From contig NC_087081.1 of the NCBI RefSeq assembly GCF_026151205.1, forward strand, positions 5,513,246 to 5,577,245: DNA of 64,000 nucleotides, in the 5' to 3' direction. The notes beneath the pieces are model-generated. The model was not told the DNA's origin. It did not search any database and saw only the letters and a list, made by a program, of their open reading frames with translations. Of this stretch, positions 4,019 to 50,738 are shown piece by piece; position 1 is the stretch's first letter, and each line of letters opens with the position of its first letter. Source of the DNA: Bolinopsis microptera. Its lineage: Eukaryota; Ctenophora; Tentaculata; Lobata; Bolinopsidae. Both the position numbers and the translations under genes were made by a program.

Positions 4019-5394
4019 TTACAATCTTTTATTCTAGCTTTTGCAACATTTTAATTGCTCTCTTATCGGTAGTGTTATCTCAACGTGCTGTTACACCGAC
4101 ACGTCGTGCTGTACGCCTTGGCTTTTGTAAAATGGATTTTTCCGTCGAACATCTGAACAGATTTGAAAAGGAGCTATCGTCAGCGATGAATGAGATTTTG
4201 AAGATGTCAAAAGCACAAAGCGTTACAGAACTGAATCATGCGAGATTAATGGCTGTAAATAAAGATCCCTTGGCTACTGCAGTTGAAAATCTTTCTAAGC
4301 TAATGACTAGTAATCTTGAACTTTGTAAATGTGCAGCCAGTACGATAGACAAACTTAAATCAGATCAGCTGAACTATCAGAAAGACCAGATTAAACAGCA
4401 ACAGGAGCAACTCGACTCTTTTAAAACAACTGTTCATACCGAGATGAAGACAGCGTGGAGCGATATCGTGAAGAAGAACTGCGAGACAACTACAAGTACT
4501 CCGTCGATCAACAGTATAAAAACAGCTGTGAAAACCGTAGTTGAAGACGACATCCGTAGTAAGAATTTCATTATCTACGGTGTACCGGAGAATTATTCCC
4601 CTGATCCACACTTAGTGGCAGAAGAAGTGATCGAATTGATTTGGGAATCCTCAGGGTGTGATCCTAAAGTTGTGGCAGCAAATTCTATCGGGACTAAAAC
4701 AACTTCAGGCAGTGGTAAACCGAGACCAATAAAAGTGACATTGGCTTGCGCGGAATCAGTAAAAATGGTTCTTGCTCGAGCAAGAAATCTGAAGAAATCT
4801 AAATGTACAGCGTACCACACATGGTACATCACACCTGACAGAAGCAAGGAGGAGAGAGCAGCTCATCAGAAACTTGTTGTCAAAGTAAAGGAAATGATCA
4901 CTGATGAGCCAACAAAGTATCATTATATTAGAGACGGCAAGATTTTCAGTGTAGATAAGGTTAAGTTGTAACATTCGGTGTTTTTGATATCTACATAATT
5001 ACTTTGATTTAAATGTGTGTATGGCTCTTATTTATGGCTGTTGCGTGTATTTGTTGATTACGGCTAATAACGAGAAACTTTTAATTGTGAGCTAAAAAAC
5101 TGCAACCGTGATTGTAACTCAGGTATGTGATGACTTGTGGAGCACACATCGCTGAATAGCAATCGCGAAGCAGGTCTCACCAAGGCTAGGTATATTTAAG
5201 GTTTTTTATTTTTCTGAGGACACTTTGCCAGTAGTTTAACTTTTTGTGTTGTGTGCTACGGTACAGTGTTTCAATTTTTGATTATAGTGGTATGTTCTAT
5301 CTTTCTATTTATTTATCTAATTCTAATGTAATATTTCAATATTATAGTAAACATTAACCAGTGTACCAAAAGCTGGTCCCCAAACAAACAAACA
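4019..5394 (+). mobile_element. 1.37-kb non-LTR-type insertion inside the minisatellite
   Basis: Unique sequence interrupts the 31-bp array and holds the ORF1-like gene at 4132-4971. The left junction is GATGCAGT/TACAATC. The right end has a CAAA-type tail (CCAAACAAACAAA) before CAGTGGGGGAAC, so CAGT occurs on both sides and may be a very short target duplication. A 3' (CAAA)n tail and an ORF1-type protein fit a non-LTR retrotransposon lacking ORF2. It could instead be a retrocopied host gene. The 420 bp after the stop codon show no second ORF. Confidence 0.5.
4132..4971 (+). CDS. L1/Tx1-type ORF1-like RNA-binding protein
   Basis: A 279-codon uninterrupted frame; the ATG at 4132 is the first after the minisatellite. 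The same frame runs back into the array to 3907, but that extension is repeat-derived and is rejected as coding. Residues about 72-106 are Gln/Lys-rich and probably coiled coil (KDQIKQQQEQLDSF). Residues 141-217 look like the RRM-type domain of non-LTR ORF1 proteins: strand IRSKNFIIYGVPE, then PRPIKVTLA, then a helix containing MVLARARNLKKSK. The C-terminal part has TPDRSKEERAAHQKLV followed by YHYIRDGKIFSVD, a pattern typical of these ORF1-like proteins in invertebrate genomes. The expected role is nucleic-acid binding or chaperone activity in a retrotransposon RNP. ORF2 (endonuclease/RT) is absent. It may be a non-autonomous element or an exapted copy. It has no internal stops, so it is recent or under constraint. 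Confidence 0.75.
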   Translation: MDFSVEHLNRFEKELSSAMNEILKMSKAQSVTELNHARLMAVNKDPLATAVENLSKLMTSNLELCKCAASTIDKLKSDQLNYQKDQIKQQQEQLDSFKTTVHTEMKTAWSDIVKKNCETTTSTPSINSIKTAVKTVVEDDIRSKNFIIYGVPENYSPDPHLVAEEVIELIWESSGCDPKVVAANSIGTKTTSGSGKPRPIKVTLACAESVKMVLARARNLKKSKCTAYHTWYITPDRSKEERAAHQKLVVKVKEMITDEPTKYHYIRDGKIFSVDKVKL

Positions 5395-8300
5395 GTGGGG
5401 GAACTTAGAGGACTGTGAGGATGCCGTGGGGAAACTTAGAGGACTGTGAGGATGCAGTGGGGGAACTTAGAGGACTGTGAGGATGCAGTGGGGGAACTTA
5501 GAGGACTGTGAGGATGCAGTGGGGGAACTTAGAGGACTGTGAGGATGCAGTGGGAAAACTTAGAGGACTGTGAGGATGCAGTGGGGGAACTTAGAGGACT
5601 GTGAGGATGTAGTGGGGAACTTAGAGGACTGTGAGGATGCAGTGGGGGAACTTAGAGGACTGTGAGGATGCAGTGGGGGAACTTAGAGGACTATGAGGAT
5701 GCAGTGGGGGAACTTAGAGGACTGCGAGGATGCAGTGGGGGAACTTAGAGGACTGTAAGGATGCAGTGGGGGAACTTAGAGGACTGTGAGGATGCAGTGG
5801 GGGAACTTAGAGGAGTGAGGACTGTGATGATGCAGTGGGGGAACTTAGAGGACTGTGAGGATGCAGTGGGGGAACTTAGAGGACTGTGATGATGCAGTGG
5901 GGGAACTTAGAGGACTGTGAGGATGCAGTGGGGGAACTTAGAGGACTGTGAGGATGCAGTGGGGGAACTTAGAGGACTGTGAGGATGCAGTGGGGGAACT
6001 TAGAGGACTGTGAGGATGCAGTGGGGGAACTTAGAGGACTGTGAAGATGCAGTGGGGGAACTTAGAGGACTGTGAGGATGCAGTGGGGGAACTTAGAGGA
6101 CTGTGATGATGCAGTGGGGGAACTTAGAGGACTGTGAGGATGCAGTGGGGGAACTTAGAGGACTGTGAAGATGCAGTGGGGGAACTTAGAGGACTGTGAG
6201 GATGCAGTGGGGGAACTTAGAGGACTGTGAGGATGCAGTGGGGGAACTTAGAGGACTGTGAGGATGCAGTGGGGGAACTTAGAGGACTGTGATGATGCAG
6301 TGGGGGAACTTAGAGGACTGTGAGAATGCAGTGGGGAACTTAGAGGACTGTGAGGATGCAGTGGGGGAACTTAGAGGACTGTGATGATGCAGTGGGGGAA
6401 CTTAGAGGACTGTGAGAATGCAGTGGGTAACTTAGAGGACTGTGAGGATGCAGTTGGGGAACTTAGAGGACTGTGAGGATGCAGTGGGGGAACTTAGAGG
6501 ACTGTGAGGACTGTGAGGATGCAGTGGGGGAACTTAGAGGACTGTGAGGATGCAGTGGGTAACTTAGAGGACTGTGAGGATGCAGTGGGGGAACTTAGAG
6601 GACTGTGAGGATGCAGTGGGGGAACTTAGAGGACTGTGATGATGCAGTGGAGGAACTTAGAGGACTGTGAAGATGCAGTGGGGGAACTTAGAGGACTGCG
6701 AGGATGCAGTGGGGGAACTTAGAGGACTGCGAGGATGCAGTGGGGGAACTTAGAGGACTGCGAGGATGCAGTGGGGGAACTTAGAGGAGTGAGGACTGTG
6801 AGGATGCAGTGGGGGAACTTAGAGGACTGTGAAGATGCAGTGGGGGAACTTAGAGGACTGTGATGATGCAGTGGGGGAACTTAGAGGACTGTGAGAATGC
6901 AGTGGGGGAACTTATAGGACTGTGAGGATGCAGTGGGGGAACTTAGAGGACTGTGAGGATGCAGTGGGTAACTTAGAGGACTGTGAGGATGCAGTGGGGG
7001 AACTTAGAGGACTGCGAGGATGCAGTGGGGGAACTTAGAGGACTGTGATGATGCAGTGGGGGAACTTAGAGGACTGTGAAGATGCAGTGGGGGAACTTAG
7101 AGGACTGTGAGGATGCAGTGGGGGAACTTAGAGGACTGTGAGGATGCAGTGGGGGAACTTAGAGGACTGTGAGGATGCAGTGGGGGAACTTAGAGGACTG
7201 TGAGGATGTAGTGGGGAACTTAGAGGACTGTGAGGATGCAGTGGGGGAACTTAGAGGACTGTGAGGATGCAGTGGGGGAACTAAGAGGACTATGAGGATG
7301 CAGTGGGGGAACTAAGAGGACTGCGAGGATGCAGTGGGGGAACTTAGAGGACTGTGAGGATGCAGTGGGGGAACTTAGAGGACTGTGAGGATGCAGTGGG
7401 GGAACTTAGAGGAGTGAGGACTGTGAGGATGCAGTGGGGGAACTTAGAGGACTGTGAGGATGCAGTGGGGGAACTTAGAGGACTGTGATGATGCAGTGGG
7501 GGAACTTAGAGGACTGTGAGGATGCAGTGGGGGAACTTAGAGGACTGTGAGGATGCAGTGGGGGAACTTAGAGGACTGTGAGGATGCAGTGGGGGAACTT
7601 AGAGGACTGTGAGGATGCAGTGGGGGAACTTAGAGGACTGTGAAGATGCAGTGGGGGAACTTAGAGGACTGTGAGGATGCAGTGGGGGAACTTAGAGGAC
7701 TGTGATGATGCAGTGGGGGAACTTAGAGGACTGTGAGGATGCAGTGGGGGAACTTAGAGGACTGTGAAGATGCAGTGGGGGAACTTAGAGGACTGTGAGG
7801 ATGCAGTGGGGGAACTTAGAGGACTGTGAGGATGCAGTGGGGGAACTTAGAGGACTGTGAGGATGCAGTGGGGGAACTTAGAGGACTGTGATGATGCAGT
7901 GGGGGAACTTAGAGGACTGTGAGAATGCAGTGGGTAACTTAGAGGACTGTGAGGATGCAGTGGGGGAACTTAGAGGACTGTGAGGATGCAGTGGGGGAAC
8001 TTAGAGGACTGTGATGATGCAGTGGGGGAACTTAGAGGACTGTGAGAATGCAGTGGGTAACTTAGAGGACTGTGAGGATGCAGTTGGGGAACTTAGAGGA
8101 CTGTGAGGATGCAGTGGGGGAACTTAGAGGACTGTGAGGACTGTGAGGATGCAGTGGGGGAACTTAGAGGACTGTGAGGATGCAGTGGGTAACTTAGAGG
8201 ACTGTGAGGATGCAGTGGGGGAACTTAGAGGACTGTGAGGATGCAGTGGGGGAACTTAGAGGACTTTGATGATGCAGTGGGGGAACTTAGAGGACTGTGA

Positions 8301-11300
8301 AGATGCAGTGGGGGAACTTAGAGGACTGCGAGGATGCAGTGGGGGAACTTAGAGGACTGCGAGGATGCAGTGGGGGAACTTAGAGGACTGCGAGGATGCA
8401 GTGGGGGAACTTAGAGGAGTGAGGACTGTGAGGATGCAGTGGGGGAACTTAGAGGACTGTGAAGATGCAGTGGGGGAACTTAGAGGACTGTGATGATGCA
8501 GTGGGGGAACTTAGAGGACTGTGAGAATGCAGTGGGGGAACTTAGAGGACTGTGAGGACTGTGAGGATGCAGTGGGGGAACTTAGAAGACTGTGAGGATG
8601 CAGTGGGTAACTTAGAGGACTGTGAGGATGCAGTGGGGGAACTTAGAGGACTGCGAGGATGCAGTGGGGGAACTTAGAGGACTGTGATGATGCAGTGGGG
8701 GAACTTAGAGGACTGTGAAGATGCAGTGGGGAACTTAGAGGACTGCGAGGATGCAGTGGGGGAACTTAGAGGACTGTGAGGATGCAGTGGGGGAACTTAG
8801 AGGACTGTGAGGATGCAGTGGGGGAACTTAGAGGACTGTGAGGATGCAGTGGGGAAACTTAGAGGACTGTGAGGATGCAGTGGGGGAACTTAGAGGACTG
8901 TGAGGATGCAGTGGGGGAACTTAGAGGACTGTGAGGATGCAGTGGGGGAACTTAGAGGACTGTGAGGATGTAGTGGGGAACTTAGAGGACTGTGAGGATG
9001 CAGTGGGGGAACGTAGAGGACTGTGAGGATGCAGTGGGGGAACTTAGAGGACTGCGAGGATGCAGTGGGGGAACTTAGAGGACTGCGAGGATGCAGTGGG
9101 GGAACTTAGAGGACTGTGAGGATGCAGTGGGGGAACTTAGAGGACTGTGAGGATGCAGTGGGGGAACTTAGAGGAGTGAGGACTGTGAGGATGCAGTGGG
9201 GGAACTTAGAGGACTGTGATGATGCAGTGGGGGAACTTAGAGGACTGTGAGGATGCAGTGGGGGAACTTAGAGGACTGTGAAGATGCAGTGGGGGAACTT
9301 AGAGGACTGTGAGGATGCAGTGGGGGAACTTAGAGGACTGTGGTGATGCAGTGGGGGAACTTAGAGGACTGTGAGAATGCAGTGGGTAACTTAGAGGACT
9401 GTGAGGATGCAGTGGGGGAACTTAGAGGACTGTGAGGAAGCAGTGGGGGAACTTAGAGGACTGTGAGGACTGTGAGGATGCAGTGGGGGAACTTAGAGGA
9501 CTGTGAGGATGCAGTGGGTAACTTAGAGGACTGTGAGGATGCAGTGGGGGAACTTAGAGGACTGTGAGGATGCAGTGGGGGAACTTAGAGGACTGTGATG
9601 ATGCAGTGGGGGAACTTAGAGGACTGCGAGGATGCAGTGGGGGAACTTAGAGGACTGTGAGGATGCAGTGGGGGAACTTAGAGGACTGCGAGGATGCAGT
9701 GGGGGAACTTAGAGGACTGTGAGGATGCAGTGGGGGAACTTAGAGGACTGTGATGATGCAGTGGGGGAACTTAGAGGACTGCGAGGATGCAGTGGGGGAA
9801 CTTAGAGGACTGTGAGGATGCAGTGGGGAAACTTAGAGGACTGTGATGATGCAGTGGGGGAACTTAGAGGACTGTGAAGATGCAGTGGGGGAACTTAGAG
9901 GACTGTGAGGATGCAGTGGGGGAACTTAGAGGACTGCAAGGATGCAGTGGGGGAACTTAGAGGAGTGAGGACTGTGAGGATGCAGTGGGGGAACTTAGAG
10001 GACTGTGAGGATGCAGTGGGGGAACTTAGAGGACTGTGATGATGCAGTGGGGGAACTTAGAGGACTGTGAAGATGCAGTGGGGGAACTTAGAGGACTGTG
10101 AGGATGCAGCGGGGGAACTTAGAGGACTGTGAGGATGCAGTGGGGGAACTTAGAGGACTGTGAAGATGCAGTGGGGGAACTTAGAGGACTGTGAGGATGT
10201 AGTGGGGAACTTAGAGGACTGTGAGGATGCAGTGGGGGAACTTAGAGGACTGTGAGGATGCAGTGGGGGAACTTAGAGGACTGTGAGGATGCAGTGGGGG
10301 AACTTAGAGGACTGCGAGGATGCAGTGGGGGAACTTAGAGGAGTGAGGACTGTGAGGATGCAGTGGGGGAACTTAGAGGACTGTGAGGATGCAGTGGGTA
10401 ACTTAGAGGACTGTGAGGATGCAGTGGGGGAACTTAGAGGACTGTGAGGATGCAGTGGGGGAACTTAGAGGACTATGAGGATGCAGTGGGGGAACTTAGA
10501 GGACTGTGAGGATGCAGTGGGGGAACTTAGAGGACTGTGAGGATGCAGTGGGGGAACTTAGAGGACTGTGAGGATGCAGTGGGGGAACTTAGAGGACTGT
10601 AAGGATGCAGTGGGGGAACTTAGAGGACTGTGAGGATGCAGTGGGGAACTTAGAGGACTGTGAGGATGCAGTGGGGGAACTTAGAGGACTGTAAGGATGT
10701 AGTGGGGGAACTTAGAGGACTGTGAGGATGCAGTGGGGGAACTTAGAGGACTTTGAGGATGCAGTGGGGGAACTTAGAGGACTGCGAGGATGCAGTGGGG
10801 GGACTTAGATCGAGTACTGTAAGAATGTAGTGGGGGAACTTAGAGGACTGTGAGGATGCAGTGTGGGAACTTAGAGGACTGTGAGGATGCAGTGGGGGAA
10901 CTTAAAGGACTGTGAGGATGCAGTGGGGGAACTTAGAGGACTGTGAGGATGCAGTGGGGGAACTTAGAGGACTGTGAGGATGCAGTGGGGGAACTTAGAG
11001 GACTGTGAGAATGCAGTGGGTAACTTAGAGGACTGTGAGGATGCAGTGGGGGAACTTAGAGGACTGTGAGGATGCAGTGGGGGAACTTAGAGGACTGTGA
11101 GGGCTGTGAGGATGCAGTGGGGGAACTTAGAGGACTGTGAGGATGCAGTGGGTAACTTAGAGGACTGTGAGGATGCAGTGGGGGAACTTAGAGGACTGTG
11201 AGGATGCAGTGGGGGAACTTAGAGGACTGTGATGATGCAGTGGGGGAACTTAGAGGACTGCGAGGATGCAGTGGGGGAACTTAGAGGACTGTGAGGATGC

Positions 11301-12476
11301 AGTGGGGGAACTTAGAGGACTGCGAGGATGCAGTGGGGGAACTTAGAGGACTGTGAGGATGCAGTGGGGGAACTTAGAGGACTGCGAGGATGCAGTGGGG
11401 GAACTTAGAGGAGTGAGGACTGTGAGGATGCAGTGGGGGAACTTAGAGGACTGTGAGGATGCAGTGGGGGAACTTAGAGGACTGTGATGATGCAGTGGGG
11501 GAACTTAGAGGACTGTGAAGATGCAGTGGGGGAACTTAGAGGACTGTGAGGATGCAGCGGGGGAACTTAGAGGACTGTGAGGATGCAGTGGGGGAACTTA
11601 GAGGACTGTGAAGATGCAGTGGGGGAACTTAGAGGACTGTGAGGATGTAGTGGGGAACTTAGAGGACTGTGAGGATGCAGTGGGGGAACTTAGAGGACTG
11701 TGAGGATGCAGTGGGGGAACTTAGAGGACTGTGAGGATGCAGTGGGGGAACTTAGAGGACTGCGAGGATGCAGTGGGGGAACTTAGAGGAGTGAGGACTG
11801 TGAGGATGCAGTGGGGGAACTTAGAGGACTGTGAGGATGCAGTGGGTAACTTAGAGGACTGTGAGGATGCAGTGGGGGAACTTAGAGGACTGTGAGGATG
11901 CAGTGGGGGAACTTAGAGGACTATGAGGATGCAGTGGGGGAACTTAGAGGACTGTGAGGATGCAGTGGGGGAACTTAGAGGACTGTGAGGATGCAGTGGG
12001 GGAACTTAGAGGACTGTGAGGATGCAGTGGGGGAACTTAGAGGACTGTAAGGATGCAGTGGGGGAACTTAGAGGACTGTGAGGATGCAGTGGGGAACTTA
12101 GAGGACTGTGAGGATGCAGTGGGGGAACTTAGAGGACTGTAAGGATGTAGTGGGGGAACTTAGAGGACTGTGAGGATGCAGTGGGGGAACTTAGAGGACT
12201 GCGAGGATGCAGTGGGGGAACTTAGAGGACTGCGAGGATGCAGTGGGGGGACTTAGATCGAGGACTGTAAGAATGTAGTGGGGGAACTTAGAGGACTGTG
12301 AGGATGCAGTGTGGGAACTTAGAGGACTGTGAGGATGCAGTGGGAGAACTTAAAGGACTGTGAGGATGCAGTGGGGGAACTTAGAGGACTGTGAGGATGC
12401 AGTGGGGGAACTTAGAGGACTGTGAGGATGCAGTGGGGGAACTTAGAGGACTTTGAGGGTGCAGTGGGGGAACTTA
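5395..12476. repeat. 31-bp minisatellite, right block, with higher-order repeats
   Basis: About 7.1 kb of the same 31-bp unit as the left block, some 228 copies. Distinct variants recur together in order, which shows duplication of long multi-unit blocks. The GTAGTGGGGAAC variant lies at about 5609, 7208, 8970, 10199 and 11647. The unusual CTTAGATCGAG variant lies at about 10803 and 12251, so the last two blocks repeat with a period near 1448 bp. No open frame of useful length exists. The array ends at the GGGGGAACTTAG before 12477. Confidence 0.97.
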
Positions 12477-13862
12477 GATGTATAGGTGTATATTGTGCAT
12501 TAGGCTAGTTTAAAAGTTGAAAATCTAAAAGTTGCACACGTGGGGACACGCCCAAATTGATATAAAATTGCTAAAATCACGGAAAATTGCATATATTGCC
12601 CGATTTTACTTTCTGAATTAGTGAATTAGTCGCGCCACGCTCAAATACTTTCTGAAAGTCTTAAAACTTTTTCACCAAAAACATTCTAATTCACAATGAA
12701 ATATAATTGATCAGTTTCAAATTTAGAAAGAATGTTAAGAGTTTCGGCAGTTTAACCTCATATAGACCTTTACTTATTAAATTGATGTGACTGCACTGAC
12801 GGTGGACCATTGCATCATGTGGTGCCTAAAGTTTCGCATATTCAAATTATTGTGTAGGCGTGCAGATGAGGCTTCTTAAGGTGTGATGTAGAGTTTAAGA
12901 GGTTTTTTCAACAACGAACATTTAGGGGTGTTTCTAATAATCTAACCATGAGGGTCTAACTCTAATCATCATCATTATATAAGGCCGATTATAACACTGG
13001 TAACAGGTAAAGAGGTAATTAGCATCATTTTGAACTTTGAGCTGAAGTGACTGTCTTTTTAAGTATTGCATATTAATGTTAGGATGTTAGGAGATGATAT
13101 GATTTGCAGGCTGATAATAGTAAATACTTTTATTGAACGCTTATAGGGCTTCCAGCGTCCAATCAATGTCCGTTCAAATAATGTCCGTTAAGTTAGACAT
13201 CTATAATAATACAAAATAAAGTTACCTGAAGTTCTATCTTAGTGTGTATAGGGGCTGTAGTCAGGATCGACATTGGCCTCACCAGTTGTATTCTCCTAGA
13301 ACGTTTGTAACTGGCTGCTGACGATGCACGATTATGGCTGTGTCTACTCATGGTTACAACAAATTTAACTGTATATCATAAACTATTTCGATCCCTCACA
13401 AGAGTCAATCGAGTGCATTCGAGCAATGCACAATATATTAAATCCGATAAACAGTGCTTGTGGTGAATTTAATTCAATAATCCAAGCAGCTGAGCCTGCG
13501 AAACCGACGGAAGATAAAACGAGTGCATTTAAACCTCACAGTGGTTAAAGTTAAGATGTGCAATCAACTGCAACCGTACGTGTGATCATGCAGGATCATG
13601 TGAATTTGTGACACGATTACATAGGACATTGTTTTAGGGGCACCTTCATTAGTTTAACGTATAAATATATATTCGATACGAAGAAATACGAAGTTTTAGA
13701 AGTTTTAAATCTATCGATATCATCACTATTATTGTCAAAGCTGAACGTTTATAATGCATCACAAATAACAAACACCATCTCTTCTTGTGAATACAGCAAA
13801 TATACTATGCGAGTTTTGCATTGTACAGTATTCTGCTTACTAATCCACATATACAGTTCCTT
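12477..13862. other. AT-rich non-coding interval
   Basis: No ORF or RNA gene is supported. It contains a short family-A MITE fragment near 13145-13195 (CAATGTCCGTTCAAATAATG). Nothing else is recognised. Confidence 0.5.
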
Positions 13863-15996: not shown

Positions 15997-17933
15997 GCAA
16001 TTCGATAAGTCAGCTGGGTAGACATATTGATAATTGTGTATTACCGTCCAATAAATGTCTGTTCAAATAAATTCCGGTGACGTATAGTATTAGTAATGAT
16101 AACTGCATAATATATATTACAGTATTATAATTACACAGTTTTCTCTGGACAATTCAATGCAGCCTCTTTTGACCTGTTAAACAATATTTGCTGGCCAACA
16201 GAATAGGGAAACTGGAAAACTTGGAAAGGAAATAAAATATTTACGTTAGATTGTAGAAATCTCGCGCTGTTTCCATCATTTTCTTGTCATCATCCCCCTC
16301 CTCGACCAATCTGTTGGATCAAAAGCTTTTAAAGAAACATCAAACATACCTTATCCTCCCTTATTATACTTATCTAGGTCAGAGTACATTTTTTATAATC
16401 ATTAAATTGTCCACTTTGTGTGTGATTGCAATAAACTTCATTTCATATTCACACATCTCACACAATGCTTAGCGATGATAAACTCACTAAAACTTCAGAA
16501 CACATAAAAAACTTGAAAAAAAAGAACCAAAAAGCACAAAAAAAAACATACGAAAAAAAAAAACACATGTGAAAGAGCAGCTCCCAATTACCTCGACTGC
16601 TCCGGCATCCACATGTTACTGTGACTGTACATAGCAAAGCGCATGCCCGCTAGTCGACTCCGTTCCATTCCGCAGTATATATATAAGAACAAAGGTTAGC
16701 ACATGAGTTATAACCGCAAGGAGATCTAATAACAAGTACGGTGGATAATGCTGCTCTCAATATCGTATAGTCTATCTTAACGTCTTATCACGGATATGTC
16801 TAGTTTAACACATTCTGTAAAGCACATGGTCACCTCTCTGGATATAAGTTTATAATGTAAAGTGTGTGAGCTGTGATTAGACAATGGTGTTAAAGTTTAA
16901 GGTTATAAGGATTTAAACTTCAGATGTGATGCACTGATGCGTGTACGTGTAGCTGTAGCTGTAATGGTTTCAGGAACGAAGTAAGCATACTATAGGATCA
17001 CGATCATGGTGTTATAACGCTAGATTCACGTGATAATACCAGAAAGCAATTCGACGAACTTAAGTTATTGCCAAGTGTTTGCAGCAGTAGAGCAGATAAA
17101 TCGAGCTGCAAACACGTGGTTTAGCTATGTAACCTCTAAAATAAAACGTAACCTAGTGTTACAATGTGAAACCTCCCGGTCTAATTCACAAATACGCACA
17201 CCAGCTGGTGTTGTCCATTATTCTTGTCCCAGTTTCAAAGATTGAAGATGAACTTTCCTGGACCAAATTTCACAGAGTTGACTACATTTTTTTCCACTGA
17301 AAAGTTTTAAGTCAGTAAACTTAAACTGAATGCATGCAATGTATGTTTGATCTTATTTGTCTGACCAGACGAAGAATGTTTAAAAATTTTTAAATTAATG
17401 TTTTAACCTTTATCCAGCTTTTCATACTTTTTGACCTTATTCTTGTTTTATAGCCTTATAAACTATGAGTATACCATTCCACCTTATAGCTTTGTTCATT
17501 GGCCATTTTTCTTCCTTTAGCTATCACTTATAATAAACATTAAACATCTTTTCGTCACAGTTGAAAATTAATCAAAGCGTCAATCAAAGCACAACTTTTT
17601 AAATTCAGCATGCTGTCTTATGTGAAAGTAAAAATAATCCTCAGCTGATCAATTAACGTTTACTTATCAATTTATGACATAATATAATACAGTTACATCA
17701 TTCCTACTTCACATCACTATAAAACAATCAAACAGATTATGAAATCATTGATCTAAATTGATCTAAATTTAAATGAAACAAATATCAAAGTTACATAATA
17801 TCAGCTAGGTTAAAATAGTGAGTTTGTAAATTAATAAATCAGTAAATTGGTCACTCCTCACTGCTGATGATTTTCTTTTATAAAAAAGTTCTTTAACTCA
17901 CGATCATTCAGTCCTCCAATCAGCAGTGCATTA

Positions 17934-19844
17934 GGCAACTTGGTCGTTTAGCTCCGGACAGTCTATGCAACGTCCATGCAACGTCCATGCAACAACAAAA
18001 GAACCGTCTATGCAACGTCTATGCAACGTCCCTGCACAATGAACACTCTATGCACACTCCCTGCACGGTCAGTCTATGCAACGTCTATGCAACGTCTATG
18101 CAACGTCTATGCAACGTCCCTGCACAGTACCATATGAACACCGGCTACTAGCCGGCTAGTAGCCACTTTTGTAATAACAGCTCCTCAACTTCACATTACC
18201 AACCGGCTACTAACCGGCACTTGAAAAGTGGTCACTAGCCGGCTACTAACCGGCTACTAGCCGGCTAGTGACCACAAAGTGGCTACTAACCGGCTACTAA
18301 GCGGTCACTAGCCGGCTATTAGCCGAGCTCTAAAGCAGACCTACTAGTAGCCGGTTCCAAACCGGCTACTAGCCGGCACTTAGAAAGCGGTCACTAGCCG
18401 GCTACTAACCGGCTACTAACCGGCTAGTAACCACCAAGTGGCTACTAACCGGCTACTAACCGGTCACTAGCCGGCTCTTAAGCGGACCTACTAGCCGGCA
18501 CTCGAAAAGCGGTCGCTAGCCGGCTACTAACCGGCTACTAACCGGCTACTAACCGGTCACTAGCCGGCTATTAGCCGAGCTCTAAAGCAGACCTACTAGT
18601 AGCCGGTTCCAAACCGGCTACTAGCCGGCTACTAACCGGCTAGTAACCACCAAGTGGCTACTAACCGGTTGAGGAGCTGGAGGTTGAGGAGCTGGAAGTT
18701 GAGGAGCTGGAGGTTGAGGAGCTGGAGGTTGAGGAGCTGGAGGTTGAGGAGCTGGAGGTTGAGGAGCTGGAGGTTGAGGCGGTTGAGGAGCAGCAGCGGT
18801 ACGAGGAGCTAGTCCTGGAACAGTGGGAGGAGGAGGGGGTGGGGTAGGTCTTGAAGTAGAAGAGGTTCTAAGTCGGTGATTGGTGGTGGGGATAGGTCTG
18901 TTTGGTCGAATTGTGGGTGTAGAGTGCAGGGAGCACGGATCGATGTGTACTATAGTAGCCGGTTTGGAACCGGCTACTAGTAGGTCCGCTTAAGAGCCGG
19001 CTAGTGACCGGTTAGTAGCCGGTTAGTAGCCACTTGGTGGTTACTAGCCGGTTAGTAGCCGGTTAGTAGCCGGCTAGTGACCGCTTTCTAAGTGCCGGCT
19101 AGTAGCCGGTTTGGAACCGGCTACTAGTAGGTCTGCTTTAGAGCTCGGCTAATAGCCGGCTAGTGACCGGTTAGTAGCCGGTTAGTAGCCACTTGGTGGT
19201 TACTAGCCGGTTAGTAGCCGGTTAGTAGCCGGCGAGTGACCGCTTTTCAAGTGCCGGCTAGTAGCCGGTTTAGAACCGGCTACTAATAGGTCTGCTTTAG
19301 AGCCGGCTAGTGACCGGTTAGTAGCCGGTTAGTAGCCACTTGGTGGTTACTAGCCGGTTAGTAGCCGGTTAGTAGCCGGCTAGTGACCGCTTTTCAAGTG
19401 CCGGCTAGTAGCCGGTTTAGAACCGGCTACTAATAGGTCTGCTTTAGAGCTCGGCTAATAGCCGGCTAGTGACCGCTTAGTAGCCGGTTAGTAGCCACTT
19501 TGTGGTCACTAGCCGGCTAGTAGCCGGTTAGTAGCCGGCTAGTGACCACTTTTCAAGTGCCGGTTAGTAGCCGGTTGTTAATGTGAAGTTGAGGAGCTGT
19601 TATTACAAAAGTGGCTACTAGCCGGCTAGTAGCCGGCTAGTAGCCGGTGTTCATATGGTACTGTGCAGGGACGTTGCATAGACGTTGCATAGACGTTGCA
19701 TAGACTGACCGTGCAGGGAGTGTGCATAGAGTGTTCATTGTGCAGGGACGTTGCATAGACGTTGCATAGACGGTTCTTTTGTTGTTGCACGGACGTTGCA
19801 TAGACGTTGCATAGACTGTCCGGAGCTAAACGACCAACTTCCCC
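17934..19844. mobile_element. foldback element FB1 (1.9 kb, 8-bp TSD)
   Basis: A long palindromic element. The 8-bp direct repeat GTGCATTA flanks it exactly (17926-17933 and 19845-19852). The left end starts GGCAACTTGGTCGTTTAGC; the right end is its inverted near-copy, starting GGGGAAGTTGGTCG when read inward. Each arm has an outer array of an 11-bp unit (GTCTATGCAAC) and an inner array of a second 11-bp unit (CCGGCTACTAA) broken by TAACAGCTCCTCAACTTCAC. The arms are about 720 and 880 bp. The centre (18621-18953) holds a proline-rich open frame on the minus strand. An 8-bp TSD suggests a hAT-, P- or related cut-and-paste transposase supplied in trans; none is encoded here. Confidence 0.85.
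18621..18953 (-). CDS. proline-rich ORF in the centre of FB1
   Basis: A 110-codon minus-strand frame without an ATG. It begins IVHIDPCSLHSTP, passes through RPNRP and RPTPPPPPPTVPG, runs through about eight PAPQPP repeats (encoded by the GAGGAGCTGGAGGTT repeat at about 18668-18778), and stops inside the left arm. The first half matches the ORF of element FB2 (25160-25612): both have IV-x-x-DPC, then H-x-TP, RP-x-R and RPT-x-PPPPP-T in the same order. The C-terminal half of the FB2 protein is missing; repeat expansion and arm sequence occupy that position. It is probably a decayed or captured fragment. Confidence 0.5.
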   Translation of the reverse strand: MVHIDPCSLHSTPTIRPNRPIPTTNHRLRTSSTSRPTPPPPPPTVPGLAPRTAAAPQPPQPPAPQPPAPQPPAPQPPAPQPPAPQLPAPQPPAPQPVSSHLVVTSRLVAG

Positions 19845-20095
19845 GTGCATTAATTAAATACATATCTATTAAATAAATTAAACTTGGTAATTGTTGATAA
19901 AGATTTGTAAATAAATTGAGTTTTCCTTTATATCGCGGCTAGCCCAATTAACAAATGAACCTTCAGCCCTCAGTTTCATTATCTATTTCACTCCTTTTAA
20001 AAATACATATTTCTCACAATTAAAAAAACTATCAGTTTTGATTATAGTGCTGACTCTCGTCTACATATTTAAACTCAACAAATCATATAACAGAT

Positions 20096-21424
20096 TCAGT
20101 GCTGTACTCCAGTCATGGACAGAACAACACACACCAACAGTGAACTGGAAACAACACACAGCAAGGTAGTTGTGTAAGGGTTCAGGAAGGACGCCAGAGC
20201 CACCCCACCGATACCACCAACATACGCAACTGTAAACATTAGGGTGCTGCTTGCTGCTAGGCCATCCGAGCCAAAATACTCAGCGTCCAACAGGAGGATA
20301 AGGGATTCTGTGGATTGCATTCCGTAAACCATTTTAGCAATGCCCATGCAGGTATATTGAACCCACAAGCCTGGTTTGAACAACACGACCGCACAGCTTA
20401 TAGCAGTGAGTGCTCCTATAACTGACTGAAGGACTCTGAACTTAAAGCACTTCCGGAGAAGAAACCCGAAGTAACGTCCAAAGAACTGTGAGCCTCCGGA
20501 AATAGCTGCTATTACGAGATACTCTGCTCCGTGAACCACACCCTGGCAGGGGTCATATTCTAATATAGTGGAATTTAGCGGGCTCTCAGAATTCTCGAAA
20601 TTGTTGGATTTCATAAGTTCTGGTACTAAAAGAATACTGCCGTACCCAAACACCATTAGCAGACCAATAAACAGACTCCCTTTACATAAACGTAGGTTAA
20701 AGTCTGTAGGCTCCTTAAAATGCTCCTTTTTCCGAGAATCAGTGTCTAATTGTTCTTCGTGGCTGTCCGATTTTTCTAGATTACAGTGCAGTATGATTAT
20801 AGGCGGTATGAACCAAGGGATTGAGGTACACAGAATAAACTCACGCCAATTTATCAGATCCAGCAGACACCACCCTAGAAAACCTATCCAGGTACTTCCC
20901 AGGGCAATGGCAAATCCTTGTAGAAAAGCTCCAGTAGGAACGATTTCAATAGAGGACACATTCTGGGTGAAATACACCCCTGATGTTGCGGCAGTTAAAC
21001 CAACACAGATGCCAGTGAGTGCCCGGGAAATTAACAGTGTCCAATAGTTAGGAACAATCGCACATACCACAGCGAAAATAATTGAGGAGTAAAGTGAGAG
21101 ATAGAGCACGAACTTATTACCGAGCTTCTTAGCTAGGGGCATGGAGATTAACGTGGATAGAGCCATGAAAACGTAAAGAATTACCCCCAGGACAGACTCG
21201 CCAAGAGGGGAAATGTCCATCTCACAAGAAACTTGCTGGGTTATGATACCGGGCAGGTAGATCTCAATCCCATGACCGAACTTAATTAGCATCCACTGGA
21301 CCAGGAATATGTAATCTTTACCAGTCCATTTCACGATGTGGCGCTTTAGCAGGGTGTTCCTCTCTGAGCCTTGTCTTTCTTCTTCGGTGTCAGGGGTAGA
21401 GTTTGAAGTGATCATTGGAGACAT
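20096..21424 (-). CDS. MFS transporter, SLC22/SV2-like
   Basis: An intact 442-residue intronless frame. It has an N-terminal cytosolic tail of about 36 residues, then hydrophobic segments near 37-62, 77-95, 105-124, 127-147, 164-188 and 196-212. A charged central loop spans about 213-246, and a second set of segments runs from about 250 to 440, giving the 6+6 layout of the major facilitator superfamily. PLAKKLGNK (96-104), between TM2 and TM3, matches MFS motif A; SRALTGICVG (133-142) matches the Arg-containing TM4 motif; GRYFGFLLRKCFKFR (316-330) is the second-half equivalent of motif A. It should act as a membrane solute carrier; the substrate cannot be deduced. The start is the first ATG. 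Eleven bases upstream lies a possible splice acceptor (CCCTTTCAG), so a 5'UTR intron or trans-splice site is possible. Confidence 0.85.
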   Translation of the reverse strand: MSPMITSNSTPDTEEERQGSERNTLLKRHIVKWTGKDYIFLVQWMLIKFGHGIEIYLPGIITQQVSCEMDISPLGESVLGVILYVFMALSTLISMPLAKKLGNKFVLYLSLYSSIIFAVVCAIVPNYWTLLISRALTGICVGLTAATSGVYFTQNVSSIEIVPTGAFLQGFAIALGSTWIGFLGWCLLDLINWREFILCTSIPWFIPPIIILHCNLEKSDSHEEQLDTDSRKKEHFKEPTDFNLRLCKGSLFIGLLMVFGYGSILLVPELMKSNNFENSESPLNSTILEYDPCQGVVHGAEYLVIAAISGGSQFFGRYFGFLLRKCFKFRVLQSVIGALTAISCAVVLFKPGLWVQYTCMGIAKMVYGMQSTESLILLLDAEYFGSDGLAASSTLMFTVAYVGGIGGVALASFLNPYTTTLLCVVSSSLLVCVVLSMTGVQH

Positions 21425-21975
21425 GCGGTGTCCTCTGAAAGGGATTATTTTTATTCTAAAAACTTAAATATTTTTAAACATGATTTAAGAAATTAACAAA
21501 TGTATCAGCAATTGGCCCAAGACGCATTACTTTTTGCATAAGCTTCGAGTATCGAGTGAATCGACAAAAAATGACAGAAAGTCATCGCGTTTATAGATAC
21601 ACGATTAATACAAATTACTGAAACAACTGTTATTGATATGATAAAAATGGCCGGGTGCAAATTTTGACCAAGAAATATTATGAAATCGGCCGTGAGTATA
21701 TGGTGTACACAATAGACATTAGACATTTTGTAAGTCTAAGTATACGCATAAATGATAATGTGCCGTAATGTCAAGAGGAGAGTGGACACGCGTCAAATAA
21801 AAACTAAAATAATCGTACAATAGTGAAAAAGAAGAAGTGACGCGCCACACCCTCTGTAATATATGACATTTAACAGAACTTCCAGGAAATCTGAATTTGA
21901 CCCATATTTATATTTTCTGAAATTTTGGTGCAATTCTGACACGAATTACGTGAATTATTAATATATATATAGGCA

Positions 21976-22821
21976 ATAGATGTGGATACTGGCGGGGAGG
22001 TGATAATTGTTTGTTTACATTAATAGTGAGCACATGTTAAGCAGGCTGAGGAGGTGATAATTGTTTGTTTACATTTTAGGTCGAGCACATGTTAAGCAGG
22101 CTGAGGAGGTGATACATATTTTGTATTATAGAAGGTTTGTAACACTTGTAACGCCTTCTTGTTACCCCCCTTTGAGGACCCCGATTTATTTTCTGAACGA
22201 AAGCTCAAAAATAACCGAGAAATCGACCTTCTTATTAACTCATTTTGATGACTGTTTCTGACCTAAAATTGCACGAAAAATCGATTTAGCTAAGTTTCAG
22301 AACCTATAAACACTTCCTTATCCCTCAAAATTGATGTTTTATAGTTAATACGACCAACAAGCAACATATATTTTGATCCTTCGGTTCTACTCATGACCTA
22401 GACAGTTAAGCTGAACCCGACAGATTGAGGCAATCCTCACCTTAACTGACCAAACTGGTACTAACACAATTTTCAGATATAAATGTTCTTTGCGATACGT
22501 TTATTGCAGCTTTGCAACTTGAGTGAAGACCAGAGTACGAAAACACACAGCAGGTAAGCAACTCACTTTTGGTGACTGTTCCTCACGAACATTCTGATCC
22601 TGTAACAATCCTCACCTTAACTCAAAGGGGGGTAACAAGAAGGCGTTACAAGTGTTACAAACCTTCTATAATACAAAATATGTATCACCTCCTCAGCCTG
22701 CTTAACATGTGCTCGACCTAAAATGTAAACAAACAATTATCACCTCCTCAGCCTGCTTAACATGTGCTCACTATTAATGTAAACAAACAATTATCACCTC
22801 CCCGCCAGTATCCACATCTAT
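21976..22821. mobile_element. inverted-repeat element with 201-bp arms
   Basis: Arms 21976-22176 and 22621-22821 are inverted copies that I see as essentially perfect. Each starts ATAGATGTGGATACTGGCGG and contains two direct copies of GTTTGTTTACATT...CACATGTTAAGCAGGCTGAG. The 444-bp centre has no ORF of interest. It is a foldback or MITE-like element, or a local inverted duplication. No clear target duplication flanks it. Confidence 0.85.
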
Positions 22822-24325
22822 AGGGTTACACGTACGTGCAGTGTGGGCAGTTACTTTCGGGCCACCATGATGTACTATATTCTTATATTAAATTAAAAGG
22901 TATTGCAACAGACGAATAATACAAAGAACCTTGACAAGAGTGTGAGAGTTTATAAATAAACCGTATTTATTATTTAACATCAGTTAATTATTTGATGAGG
23001 ATGACAATAGAAATCAGAAGGCGTATCCTTATAATCTTATAGAATCTATGAAAGTGCAATGAAGTAAAATGAAGTCTAAACATCGTGCATTTCTTAAGTT
23101 TTTATCACGACAAATACAATGAAGTGATCAAACAATAAAAGCTAAGGCTTTTATAAACTTTTCGTAAGATTGCGGGACTTTCATTACGTCCCCAGCAATC
23201 TATCAAATACAATAAAGTGCTAAAATTAAGACATAAAGTTAAACAGTGTCGGAACTCCTTTTCATGAGAACATTTTCTTTCGTATGGAACATTTCTTTTA
23301 TAAAAAATGTTCAATCTTCACTGAAATTAGAACAGCAAATATAAAGTAAAAAAGTAATTCGAAAAATTGCCATCGCGATAGCGATTGTTCGATGCGAGCC
23401 ACATGTAATGCGCGCGCGCAGAGCCTATCAAATAAAGCCGGTAACCAAAATTAACGCATATAGTCGTAAAAAATTGCCTCTCAGCTAGCAATAAACAAGA
23501 AAACATCAAAGATTTGAATTGTGATAATGATAAGATATTCATTAGTTTCAGGTTTTGTCATAGAAGATCCTCTCAATAAGCATAATTTGTGGCGTAAAAT
23601 TTCCTTTCCAGAATGATCAAACTCAAAGTTGGCACCAAAATGATGTGCCTGGTATGTTCGGTTTATTAGATTAGTATCTTCATCTGATTATAGTAATTAG
23701 GTTGATTTCTGAATGATATATAACGCTGCTTAATTTTTAACAAAAAGACAATTTTCTGGATTGCATAGCCGATAAGACGTTTTTAAGTAAATATATTTAT
23801 AACGGAACTTCGATATTATTACATGGCATTTTTTATGATCGAATTAATATCGTTATTAATATTAAAATGCTCATAGTTGCCAAATATTTTAAACTTTCAT
23901 CAGCACAGTATAATTAGATCAATTTAGCAATAACAGTTCCATAAATGTTTGTAAATTGGTGCTCGCTTATCAGTTGCTGGGTTTATTTAATTAGCGATCA
24001 TATCTCAACGACCAGAATCCAATCCACTTCACACAATTAGATCCAGTTTCAGAACCTATAACAGGGTGGGACTGTACAAATAAAAAGCTGAGTTTGTTTG
24101 TAATACCGTGGGTTTACAAAGTAGCTTCTGCTCTACAGGAGCATATAACATTTATTAAACGTATTGATTTCCAAAAATCTGCGTATTATAAAACCAATCA
24201 TGGCAATATAAAGCCCAATGATAGAATCAATTTTCATGGTCGTGGAGTCTCATGGATGATGATAATCGGATTATCATCATCCAGTCATGTTTCATTTCTT
24301 TCGACATGATATTTTTTAAAGGTTT
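22822..24325. other. non-coding AT-rich interval
   Basis: Open frames here are short and without splice context or recognisable motifs. A GCGCGCGCAG patch lies at 23411. Nothing is supported. Confidence 0.4.
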
Positions 24326-24326
24326 T

Positions 24327-24602
24327 AAGGGTTTTTTAACGTACCTTATCGGACGTTATTTGACCGGACACTGCGTGAACGGACATAATTTTGAATGCAC
24401 ATTAAAATGAACGGCATGTACTATACCTTGTCTGACTTTATTTGAACGATTTTGAAGTCCGATAAAATATTTAACATCTTAGAACAGCACGGCCCCTCCC
24501 TCCCCCCACAATGATTCATTATGCGGTACTCAAATTTATTATATATTTTATCACATACTAACAAAGCGGGATGGTACAAGCTAGCAAAAGAGAAATAGAA
24601 AG
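24327..24602 (+). repeat. 280-bp dispersed direct repeat, copy 1 (contains family-A MITE ends)
   Basis: About 276 bp that match 26679-26963 in the same orientation with roughly 90% or more identity. It includes CCTTATCGGACGTTATTTGA, the shared CCCCTCCCTCCCCCCACAATG and AACAAAGCGGGATGGTACAA. Together with copy 2 it brackets FB2 and the non-LTR fragment. It could be the end of a longer element or a MITE-rich segmental duplication. Confidence 0.8.
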
Positions 24603-24647
24603 AGAAAATATATACACTATACAGCATATTAATTATACAGCATATTA

Positions 24648-25832
24648 GGCAATTCAGTAGTGTGGCATAACACGGTTAAGGCACGGTTAAGGCACGGTTA
24701 AGGCACGGTTAAGGCACAAGGGTTACATAATAACAGTAGTGTGGCATAACACGGTTAAGGCACGGTTAAGGCACGGTTAACGCTCGGTTAACGCACGGTT
24801 AAGGCACGGTTAAGGCACAAACTGCCCAAAAGCAACCATTATGGTCGCTTAAGGCACGGTTAACGCACGGTTAACGCACGGTTGGGGAAATATAACATAT
24901 AAACATACAAGTGGTTAACTAAGGCACGGCTAGGGAACAAGGGTTACATAAGGCACGGTTGAGACACGGTCACTTAAGGCACGGTTAACGATCTGTAAAT
25001 TTTACAGTGCGATTCCCGCTATGAATAAATTTTCTAATTGTAAAGCAACAGCCCTGCTTCGTTTGACCGTCCTATATTTGAAATCCTTATCTCGATTAAC
25101 GATCTCTTCAGGTAACAAAGCTCTTCAAATTAAGTTAACATCTCCTAGAGGGTCATCAGATGATTGTTGTAGTCGATCCCTGTCAGACACACGCTACTCC
25201 TGTAGTCAGACCGACAAGATCCAACCCTGCACCTACAAATTCTCGTACCACCGCTGTACGTCCTACCAGACCTCCTCCTCCTCCCACACCTATTGTTCCT
25301 GCTTCCAATCCCAACACCGCTCCTACCGCTCCTACCGCTCCTACCGCTCCTACTTTACCTCCATCTGGATCCCCGCCTACCTCTTCCAATGATGCTGGTT
25401 CGGATCTTGTTGCTCAAAATCCGATACTTCCTCTCAACGCTGGCAATCCCGCTCCTGGTCCAGTACGATCCAATACTCGCAAGAGAACATTCTCCCTGCC
25501 TGGAATACAAACAGAGTACAAATCAATCTTGGACCGTGTCAACGATGGAGAATCTCTAGCAGCAGCTCTAAACGCTGCTGCGTTCCCCAACCGTGCGTTA
25601 ACCGTGCGTTAACCGTGCCTTAAGCGACCATAATGGTTGCTTTTGGGCAGTTTGTGCCTGAACCGTGCCTTAACCGTGCGTTAACCGTGCGTTAACCGTG
25701 CCTTAAGAACCGTGCCTTATGTAACCCTTGTGCCTTAACCGTGCCTTAACCGTGCCTTAACCGTGCCTTAACTGTGCCTTAACCGTGCCTTAACCGTGCC
25801 TTAACCGTGTTATGCCACACTACTGAATTGCC
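24648..25832. mobile_element. foldback element FB2 (1.2 kb, 8-bp TSD)
   Basis: Flanked by an exact 8-bp direct repeat GCATATTA (24640-24647 and 25833-25840). Ends are perfect inverted repeats for at least 28 bp, starting GGCAATTCAGTAGTGTGGCA. The arms are arrays of an 11-bp unit CGGTTAAGGCA (variant CGGTTAACGCA). Both arms share the interrupting module ACAAACTGCCCAAAAGCAAC plus CATTATGGTCGC, then the array again, then GGTTGGGGAA. The centre encodes a 150-residue proline-rich protein on the plus strand, homologous to the ORF in FB1. No transposase is present. Same architecture and same GGCAA terminal start as FB1, with an unrelated repeat unit. Confidence 0.88.
25160..25612 (+). CDS. proline-rich protein with HTH-like C-terminus, cargo of FB2
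   Basis: 150 codons from an ATG at 25160. Residues 1-9 read MIVVVDPCQ. A Pro/Thr-rich low-complexity stretch (RPTRPPPPPTPIVP, then four APT repeats) covers about 15-75. A basic segment (RSNTRKRTFSLPG, about 103-115) precedes two predicted helices, TEYKSILDRVNDGES and LAAALNAAAFPNR, which look like a helix-turn-helix DNA-binding module. The frame then ends within the 11-bp array. The sequence AACGCTGCTGCGTTCCCCAA before the stop region shares CCCCAACCG with the inner end of the left arm, so the ORF terminus and the arm boundary coincide. An overlapping +1 frame (25021-25392) may hold an upstream portion (MNKFSNCKATALLRL) joined by a lost splice or frameshift. Function unknown; the family is shared with FB1. 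Confidence 0.5.
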   Translation: MIVVVDPCQTHATPVVRPTRSNPAPTNSRTTAVRPTRPPPPPTPIVPASNPNTAPTAPTAPTAPTLPPSGSPPTSSNDAGSDLVAQNPILPLNAGNPAPGPVRSNTRKRTFSLPGIQTEYKSILDRVNDGESLAAALNAAAFPNRALTVR

Positions 25833-25859
25833 GCATATTAATTATATATAATTGCAGTA

Positions 25860-26258
25860 GTTGGTGTCCTACTGCAAAGTCACTAGAAAAACTAGACATT
25901 TGCCATAGAAAACACCTTAGATCATTACTGAACATTTATTGGCCTCATGGAACAATATCCAATGCAAACTTATACCTAAGATGTAACTCAGTAAAGCTAT
26001 CAGATTTTGTCCCTAAAGCAAGGTGGAAGTTCTTAGGTCATATCTTGCGTAGTGCTGGATGACTCCCCCGCTGCATTAGCGTTAAAGTTTGCTGTCACAA
26101 CAAACTGTAAAGGGCGCGTCGGTGCGCATCGTAAGAATTTGTTCAAGATTATTATGAATGATTTGACCCGTAGAGGTTTAAAACTTAACTCTTTGAATGA
26201 TCTTGATAAGCTTAAGATATTAGCCGATGATAGAGTTGCTTGGAGAAACAAATTTTAA
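25860..26258 (+). pseudogene. 3' end of non-LTR retrotransposon ORF2
   Basis: The frame from about 25860 reads PTAKSLEKLDICHRKHLRSL, then IYWPHGTISNANLYLRCN and ARWKFLGHILRSAG, then a stop. These are hallmarks of the C-terminal region of CR1/RTE-like element ORF2 proteins (HRRHLR-LL-WP; RW-x-LGH-x-LR). A +1 frame takes over at 26052 and ends with LNDLDKLKILADDRVAW before TAA at 26258, so one frameshift separates the two parts. It is a 5'-truncated, broken copy, probably of the same family as the fragments at 53.96-55.58 kb. A 44-bp piece (25905-25948) is repeated exactly at 29397-29440. Confidence 0.75.
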
Positions 26259-26678
26259 CTCTAGCTGTTTTGACCACCATTTTAGGATGACTTGATTTCT
26301 TTTAGGGGTTTTGAATATTTTATTTTTAATGGTGTAAACAGTTTCTTAATAATACAGCATATTATGACCTACACTATAAATATAACCATGTGCTGTGGTG
26401 GATTACGAAAAGAGTGTTAGTTTATCAAATTAAGACACCATTCAACACGTCAGACTCAGACACGGTGCAATTTAAATAAAACCTAAAATAAACAGCCGAC
26501 AACTTTACACAAACACTGTGTTTGCATAGCATTAGCAAGCACCACTCACCATGCGAGGAGCGTGGAGGGAGGGGTGAATATATGTATGACGTCACAGCGC
26601 AATATCTAGTTATGGCTCTAACTTATGATAGGAACATAATAGTGTTTCGAAGGTGGTTAGTGTGAAGTTTGCACCCTT

Positions 26679-50259: not shown

Positions 50260-50370
50260 TCGAACAAGCTTGGCCAGGTAATGGGTTGTCTACGTTATTC
50301 TGTTAATAGATGTTACAGGGTATCAGGCTCATTTATGCATGATTTTTACAACCTTGTCAATGTGTAATGG

Positions 50371-50417
50371 TATAACACTGGTATAATACTGGTATAATAC
50401 TGGTATAATACTGGTAC
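50371..50417. repeat. 11-bp tandem repeat (ACTGGTATAAT)
   Basis: Four copies of ACTGGTATAAT. Short array in otherwise featureless sequence between 50260 and 50738. Confidence 0.85.
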
Positions 50418-50738
50418 AATGTTTAAGTTATATTATTAATTAGGTTTTTTTTGCAGTTTGCAGGTAAATCTTCGTAATATTTTAAATTCAGTTCTCAAAA
50501 TCCTAAAATACAATTGTTTTACTTTTTCTAACTTAAAGTTAAGAGGTGTATTGATTTGAAATGAAATTAAAAGATTGCCATAGTTGTCGGAACTTTGTGC
50601 ATCATTACGCCACAGGAGGTTCAATATTATTGCATGGCCAGTCAATTGGTGGGACTTTTCAATACTTTTCAATACAAATGTAGATTTAGAAGTACGTATG
50701 ACACCGTAGAATTGAAAAGTAGGAGTACTAGCGGTTAG

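Follow-up and report, generated by a model that had tools for sequence, protein, structure and literature searches.

Two foldback elements of Bolinopsis microptera as very likely deletion derivatives of two-gene Merlin transposons with 11-bp array arms

A stretch of 64,000 nucleotides from the ctenophore Bolinopsis microptera (contig NC_087081.1; the whole stretch is called the window below) contains two neighbouring foldback elements, FB1 and FB2, with a proline-rich coding segment between inverted arms. Which kind of mobile element are they, and what is the segment that they share? A sequence-only reading had proposed a possible undescribed family carrying an open reading frame (ORF) as cargo. 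We consider it very likely that FB1 and FB2 represent two families of the Merlin superfamily (IS1595-like), each as a non-autonomous foldback copy with an internal deletion, because full-length relatives with similar ends, arms and 8-bp target duplications encode an IS1595-type DDE transposase. The proposed mobile family with 8-bp duplications was thus upheld, whereas a superfamily of its own is ruled out by this transposase: transposase, GG ends and duplications together place the elements in Merlin. Instead of being cargo, the ORF is a broken remnant of a second gene that belongs to the transposon itself, here called the accessory gene.

Structure of FB1 and FB2

FB1 spans positions 17934-19843 of the window and is composed as follows:

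17926..17933, no strand: left target duplication GTGCATTA
17934..18120, plus strand: left outer arm, end GGCAACTTGGTCGTTT followed by the 11-bp array GTCTATGCAAC
18141..18660, plus strand: left inner arm, 11-bp array GGCTACTAACC
18667..18954, minus strand: centre, 288-bp accessory-gene fragment coding for ..TIVHIDPCSLHSTP..PPPPPPT..PAPQPP..
18955..19640, plus strand: right inner arm, 11-bp array complementary to the left inner arm
19657..19843, plus strand: right outer arm, terminus AAACGACCAACTTCCC
19845..19852, no strand: right target duplication GTGCATTA, preceded by one extra C at 19844

The outer arms (17934-18120 and 19657-19843) are 95% complementary, and two array units are used, GTCTATGCAAC outside and GGCTACTAACC inside. 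The layout reads GTGCATTA / GGCAACTTGGTCGTTT ... AAACGACCAACTTCCC / c / GTGCATTA: both 8-bp copies are identical, and between the right copy and the family's common end there is a single additional C, which puts the end of FB1 at 19843 and not, as first stated, one C further at 19844. Its ends differ (GGCAACTT at one side, GGGAAGTT at the other), so that FB1 does not have GGCAA at both. The same asymmetry of one GGC and one GGG end was seen in 40/41 FB1-type end pairs (pairs among 100 places listed; the lists behind end letters, pair lengths and gene-pair counts were copied by hand from search results). The centre (288 bp) shares 99.65% identity with the accessory gene of the longer FB1-type copies L031-L034 (L numbers denote loci fetched from the genome) and is directly abutted by the array at both junctions, which we infer to resemble a deletion arising in copying or repair.

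FB2 spans positions 24648-25832, with the layout GCATATTA / GGCAATTCAGTAGTGT ... ACACTACTGAATTGCC / GCATATTA and an exact duplication:

24640..24647, no strand: left target duplication GCATATTA
24648..24985, plus strand: left arm, end GGCAATTCAGTAGTGT and the 11-bp array CACGGTTAAGG
25139..25609, plus strand: centre, 157-aa open frame, an accessory-gene fragment whose end continues into the right arm
25583..25832, plus strand: right arm, complement of the left array, terminus ACACTACTGAATTGCC
25833..25840, no strand: right target duplication GCATATTA

Of the accessory protein, the FB2 fragment retains the stretch that begins at the DPC motif and runs up to the beginning of the C-terminal domain; the first zinc motif is missing, as is most of that C-terminal domain. 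The FB1 peptide matches the FB2 frame (C10:5538405, 53%, E=4.9e-4), and aligned C-terminal domains from relatives of the two types are 49% identical. The sequence-only description of two inverted-repeat elements with 11-bp arms, 8-bp duplications and a homologous coding segment is therefore correct, apart from the extra C in FB1. The exact duplications and the 99.65% identity are signs of recent movement.

Full-length relatives and their transposase

FB1 and FB2 themselves encode no transposase. Full-length relatives with a transposase had been predicted, and two with both genes open were found. L041 is an element of 3,935 bp with the duplication GGGTTTTG, the ends GGCAACTTGTACGAAC (GGCAA) and the arm unit AACATTAAGAC. 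Its minus strand contains an open frame of 318 codons that matches IS1595 of NCBIfam (7.5e-27, above the cut-off) and DDE_Tnp_IS1595 of Pfam (PF12762, 5.8e-13), next to weak PAX and helix-turn-helix (HTH; HTH_23) matches of 0.0097 and 0.26; a second protein of 346 aa is encoded on the plus strand. L030 (3,446 bp) lies within the duplication AAAACATG and has the ends GGTAACTCGGTAATCT (GGTAA). The peptides IVEIDESK, LTDKWKGY and HTN(T/S)CEGMW, with the D-D-E residues, occur in the transposases of both.

An IS1595-type frame is also present in L047, which represents a deeper family: its transposase is 37% identical to that of L041, its ends start with GGCAGTTT, and its second ORF is proline-rich and lies downstream on the same strand as the transposase. 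A profile search of solved structures gave no match for the transposase. Within L047 (3093-3501) we also noticed a 409-bp piece which recurs at a spacing of ~531 bp in head-to-tail rows on several contigs; it looks like a satellite-like repeat that was inserted in the element or spread with it.

FB1-type elements of 5.1-5.8 kb stand within exact duplications at L032, L034 and L038 (5.1 and 5.4 kb for L032 and L034). Pieces of a Merlin transposase were detected in the FB1-type loci L034, L035/L036, L038 and L046. In L046, a single 481-aa open frame joins the transposase core, with D, D and E present, to the proline-rich part and the C-terminal domain, presumably as the result of a deletion. In the FB2-type locus L027, an accessory fragment is fused into a transposase fragment with 59.5% identity to residues 36-155 of the L030 transposase. 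Two-gene elements thus exist in related families together with their ends and duplications, and FB1 and FB2 descend from elements with the second gene.

Based on these results, two known foldback types were rejected. A Mutator-type foldback element is ruled out by the IS1595-type transposase and the 8-bp duplications, and a P-type (Galileo) element by the L041 transposase, for which Pfam and NCBIfam return IS1595 next to the weak hits to PAX and HTH_23.

Arrays with a period of 11 bp

A lag of 11 gave the top self-match in 6/6 arm stretches of FB1 and FB2 and in all 19 element-arm stretches tested, weakly (0.37) in one of these that is mostly non-array; it was not the top lag in the one other inverted repeat tested. 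The period of 11 is found in the families of FB1, FB2, L041 and L030 with differing unit sequences (at least five), and the number of units differs among copies. Across these four families, protein and period persist and the unit changes.

In the DNA examined, 54 period-11 arrays were of element type vs 4 with other units, in a sample centred on the elements and with a loose likeness threshold. Arrays of 11 bp with other units were observed at L022 6529-6619, L023 9442-9819, L026 7168-7229, L043 5233-5335 (unit similar to the inner unit of FB1) and window 50368-50420; these are possibly the arms of further families.

Ends, target duplications and copy numbers

The genome (264.65 Mb, 232 contigs) was searched for the ends with one mismatch allowed and with control ends. 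The FB1-type end occurred 200+194 times (control 22+16) and the FB2-type end 105+97 times (control 4+2), which, less the control, corresponds to ~180 FB1-type and ~100 FB2-type copies. Accessory-gene matches were obtained at 84 merged places, compared with these copy numbers. For the 41 FB1-type pairs among the listed 100 places, the median length is 1,116 bp; 38 of them are below 2.5 kb and thus shorter than every two-gene copy read. Within a family it is therefore the arms that persist, so the earlier view that the ORF and not the arms is conserved applies between families and fails within them.

The ends read start with GG (GGCAACTT, GGGAAGTT, GGCAATTC, GGTAACTC, and GGCAGTTT in L047). Among the fetched loci and the window, GG..CC ends with exact 8-bp duplications were counted in 12 cases vs 0.15 in mononucleotide shuffles, which preserve base content only; seven of the 12 are element ends, and five lie within arrays or are otherwise not element ends. 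Exact 8-bp duplications flank L021, L030, L032, L034, L038, L041 and FB2. As expected from the sequence-only reading, duplications were also common in 20 copies, hand-picked among 100 places listed per end type with some pairs skipped: 13 were exact (FB1-type 8/10, FB2-type 5/10) and three had 1-2 mismatches. The per-position counts from this sample include nine duplications read earlier.

The accessory gene and its association with the transposase

The accessory protein contains a CX2CX4HX4C knuckle followed by a CX2CX23CX2H motif, to which the previously noted IV-x-x-DPC and H-x-TP belong. Both are kept in 13/28 sequences scanned, from four families, and many others are partial. They are followed by a proline-rich stretch of variable length and a C-terminal domain of ~105 residues with an HTH-like appearance, in which RKRCI-x-EAA is invariant across nine aligned domains, though not in L047. 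The L047 C-terminal domain nevertheless aligns with the others (24% to P0003) and matches FB1-type accessory genes at 3e-5 to 5e-4. For the two accessory domains, the proportion of nonsynonymous differences (pN) was 0.27-0.40 and that of synonymous differences (pS) 0.62-0.86, compared to pN 0.21-0.23 and pS 0.76-0.84 for the transposase. Since pS is near saturation and pN much lower, these values indicate purifying selection on the accessory protein.

With respect to its origin, the Pfam model CCDC106 (PF15794) matched the L047 protein with E=2.5e-5 and 24.6 bits, under the curated cut-off of 30.2 bits, and 4/9 other accessory proteins (best E 0.0043), all likewise under the cut-off. The L047 protein also had weak matches to HTH families (0.04-0.11), and a profile search of solved structures gave just two matches for the accessory domain, with E 1.6-1.7. 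From these profile matches, the C-terminal domain is likely homologous to CCDC106; we do not claim membership. The model exceeded its cut-off at two places on C10, the contig of the window, and one of them also matches the L047 protein (2.2e-4). Places over or near the cut-off at C10:10.83-10.85 Mb have no listed Merlin transposase nearby and may represent host genes or another transposon.

Genome searches yielded 15 match stretches for the FB2 frame, 19 for the FB1 peptide and 91 for the C-terminal domain of P0003, which underlie the 84 merged places and are lower bounds. The Merlin transposase family was found at 58 places. At 21 of these, the accessory gene lies within 5 kb, vs a mean of 0.23 and a maximum of 3 under random placement (2,000 trials, with C4 taken as 20 Mb instead of its real 16.3 Mb); 14 of the pairs are divergent and seven co-directional. 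The accessory version of the L047 type, divergent in sequence, occurs within 5 kb of the transposase at 10 more places, in two cases in convergent orientation, giving 31/58 in total. The random control covered the 21 pairs alone; of the 10 added, three are on C6, 2.7-4.8 kb apart, in a repeat-rich region. Host cargo was rejected as the identity of the gene since several Merlin families carry it.

Protein matches were expected to be flanked by inverted arrays, and this was largely borne out. By eye, inverted 11-bp arrays or a family end flank 20 accessory loci on both sides in 13 cases, on one side in four and on neither in three:

Both sides: L021, L022, L023, L024, L027, L030, L032, L033, L034, L035 with continuation, L037, L038, L039
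One side: L025, L031, L036, L040
Neither side: L026, L028, L029

Outside these 20 loci, arrays occur on both sides at L041, L043, L044 and L046 and on one side at L042. L026 adjoins an apparent retrotransposon. At L040 (4682-9513), the proline-rich part of an FB1-type accessory gene has grown to thousands of bases of short repeat, and the C-terminal domain downstream of this expansion is within an open frame of 2,080 aa.

Surroundings of the elements

Between FB1 and FB2, an open frame of 455 codons encodes a transporter of the major facilitator superfamily. The same interval contains a further inverted repeat (21976-22821; arms 21976-22176 and 22621-22821, 201 nt each, 100% complementary and separated by 444 nt), in which each arm has roughly two 55-bp repeat copies and the left arm no 11-bp period; it is probably another recent mobile element. 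Upstream, a 10-kb minisatellite (2330-12478) comprises ~321 copies of a 31-bp unit that is strongly G-rich on the shown strand. Downstream of FB2, a frame at 26057-26259 (..GRVGAHRKNLFKIIMNDLTRRGLKLNSLNDLDKLKILADDRVAWRNKF) resembles, by eye only, the protein end of a non-long-terminal-repeat retrotransposon. At C10:5581804-5582112, 4.6 kb past the right end of the window, an accessory-gene fragment and a transposase lie on opposite strands with ~15 bp overlap.

Assessment of the Merlin origin and alternative explanations

Several observations weigh against the derivation of FB1 and FB2 from two-gene Merlin elements, or against parts of it. An intact transposase was not seen in any FB1-type or FB2-type element, the longest piece being that of L046, next to the fragment in L027. 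The searches gave no accessory gene within 5 kb of the transposase at 27/58 places, none of which was read and one of which has the gene 6.5 kb away, and the relative orientation of the two genes varies among families. In L047, the arm unit is a 15-bp palindrome and the second ORF has no CX2CX4HX4C knuckle, so neither the 11-bp period nor the knuckle is universal. The predicted structure of the C-terminal domain (P0003) was poor, with a predicted local distance difference test score of 51. Four of the 20 sampled copies have no duplication; in two of these, L076/L077 and L078/L079, the flanks are the reverse complement of each other's, which suggests inverted duplication or recombination between copies. 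Duplications were also absent from L047 (cataattg left, gaagagag right), L024, L037 and a 12.5-kb copy on C2.

A complete element comprises a DDE transposase and a second protein gene between long inverted arms. The transposase presumably works on the GG..CC ends, with 8-bp target duplications as the expected result. We tentatively propose that the 11-bp arrays may be bound by the second protein, either by itself or jointly with the transposase, and that the transposition complex is assembled in this way. Since the period is near one helical turn, all predicted sites would lie on one face of the helix, and the protein could occupy the units as a phased row, pair the two arms and so mark and assemble the ends. 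Slippage and gap repair may lengthen and alter the arrays, with each family's proteins following their own unit. Copies without genes would keep moving on borrowed proteins, resulting in selection for arms and ends and in decay of the ORF. It is unlikely, though conceivable, that an array-binding second protein has been part of Merlin from the time of an early split within the superfamily, with its DNA-binding domain and the arrays changing together, the 11 bp held by helical phasing and the vertebrate CCDC106 proteins being domesticated descendants.

Other explanations would account for the same arrays and gene. It is possible, if somewhat doubtful, that the arrays are read by the transposase on its own, as in Galileo, with the second protein serving another purpose, e.g. 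protection from silencing in the manner of VANC. The weak PAX/HTH match of the transposase speaks for its own DNA binding, but the accessory C-terminal domain likewise has weak HTH matches; VANC proteins, in the parts of the source covered, bind short motifs in VANDAL tandem repeats and change together with them (PMC5735166). Rather unlikely, in our opinion, is the explanation that the arrays are passive, functionless satellites whose period reflects nothing but their mode of origin. Tandem repeats inside Merlin copies are read as possible proto-satellites in the covered parts of PMC8101967, and the variable copy number of the units and the 15-bp unit of L047 would fit; against this, the unit sequence differs between four families while the period is exactly 11 throughout, and period-11 arrays with other units were few in the element-centred sample. 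We regard it as very unlikely that a host gene of the CCDC106 type was captured and is passively transported by Merlin copies as their second gene. The similarity to CCDC106 and the CCDC106-like places on C10 argue for such a capture, but the gene occurs across several Merlin families, whose transposases share as little as 37% identity, and in co-directional, divergent and convergent arrangements, and it is under purifying selection, whereas a recent passive capture would predict decay and a single family.

Comparison with known systems

Merlin elements are usually regarded as one-gene transposons with short ends. The elements of this study differ in having a conserved gene besides that for the transposase, and foldback arms that consist of 11-bp arrays. 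What they have in common with Merlin, which is described across eukaryotes with matches in three other ctenophores, are a DDE_Tnp_IS1595 transposase, GG-starting ends, 8-bp duplications and, in some families, internal tandem repeats; the parts of that paper covered mention no second conserved gene or foldback form, the word foldback occurring 0 times (PMC8101967). In a limited search of the literature, no description of a two-gene, foldback Merlin arrangement with 11-bp arms was found. With their conserved second gene and the constant period of their foldback arms, these elements provide a natural example of possible joint change of a protein and the repeats that it targets; their host, a ctenophore, belongs to a lineage that diverged early within the animals.

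CCDC106 is a cellular protein of vertebrates. The C-terminal half of its profile (PF15794) matches the C-terminal domain of the L047 accessory protein, which suggests a possible origin of the vertebrate protein; the proteins of the FB1, FB2, L041 and L030 families differ by their zinc motifs and proline-rich part. The Mutator-like Foldback element (FB) of Drosophila has a Mutator-type transposase and a 9-bp duplication, and Galileo, of the P superfamily, a THAP/P-type transposase and a duplication of 7 bp. Galileo is thus set apart from the present elements by transposase superfamily and duplication length. Long inverted arms with internal tandem repeats are nevertheless shared with Galileo and other foldback elements, according to the parts of PMC3688188 covered. 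The Mutator-like VANDAL elements with VANC resemble the present elements by description, in the covered parts of PMC5735166, in combining a second protein with fast-changing tandem-repeat motifs inside the element.

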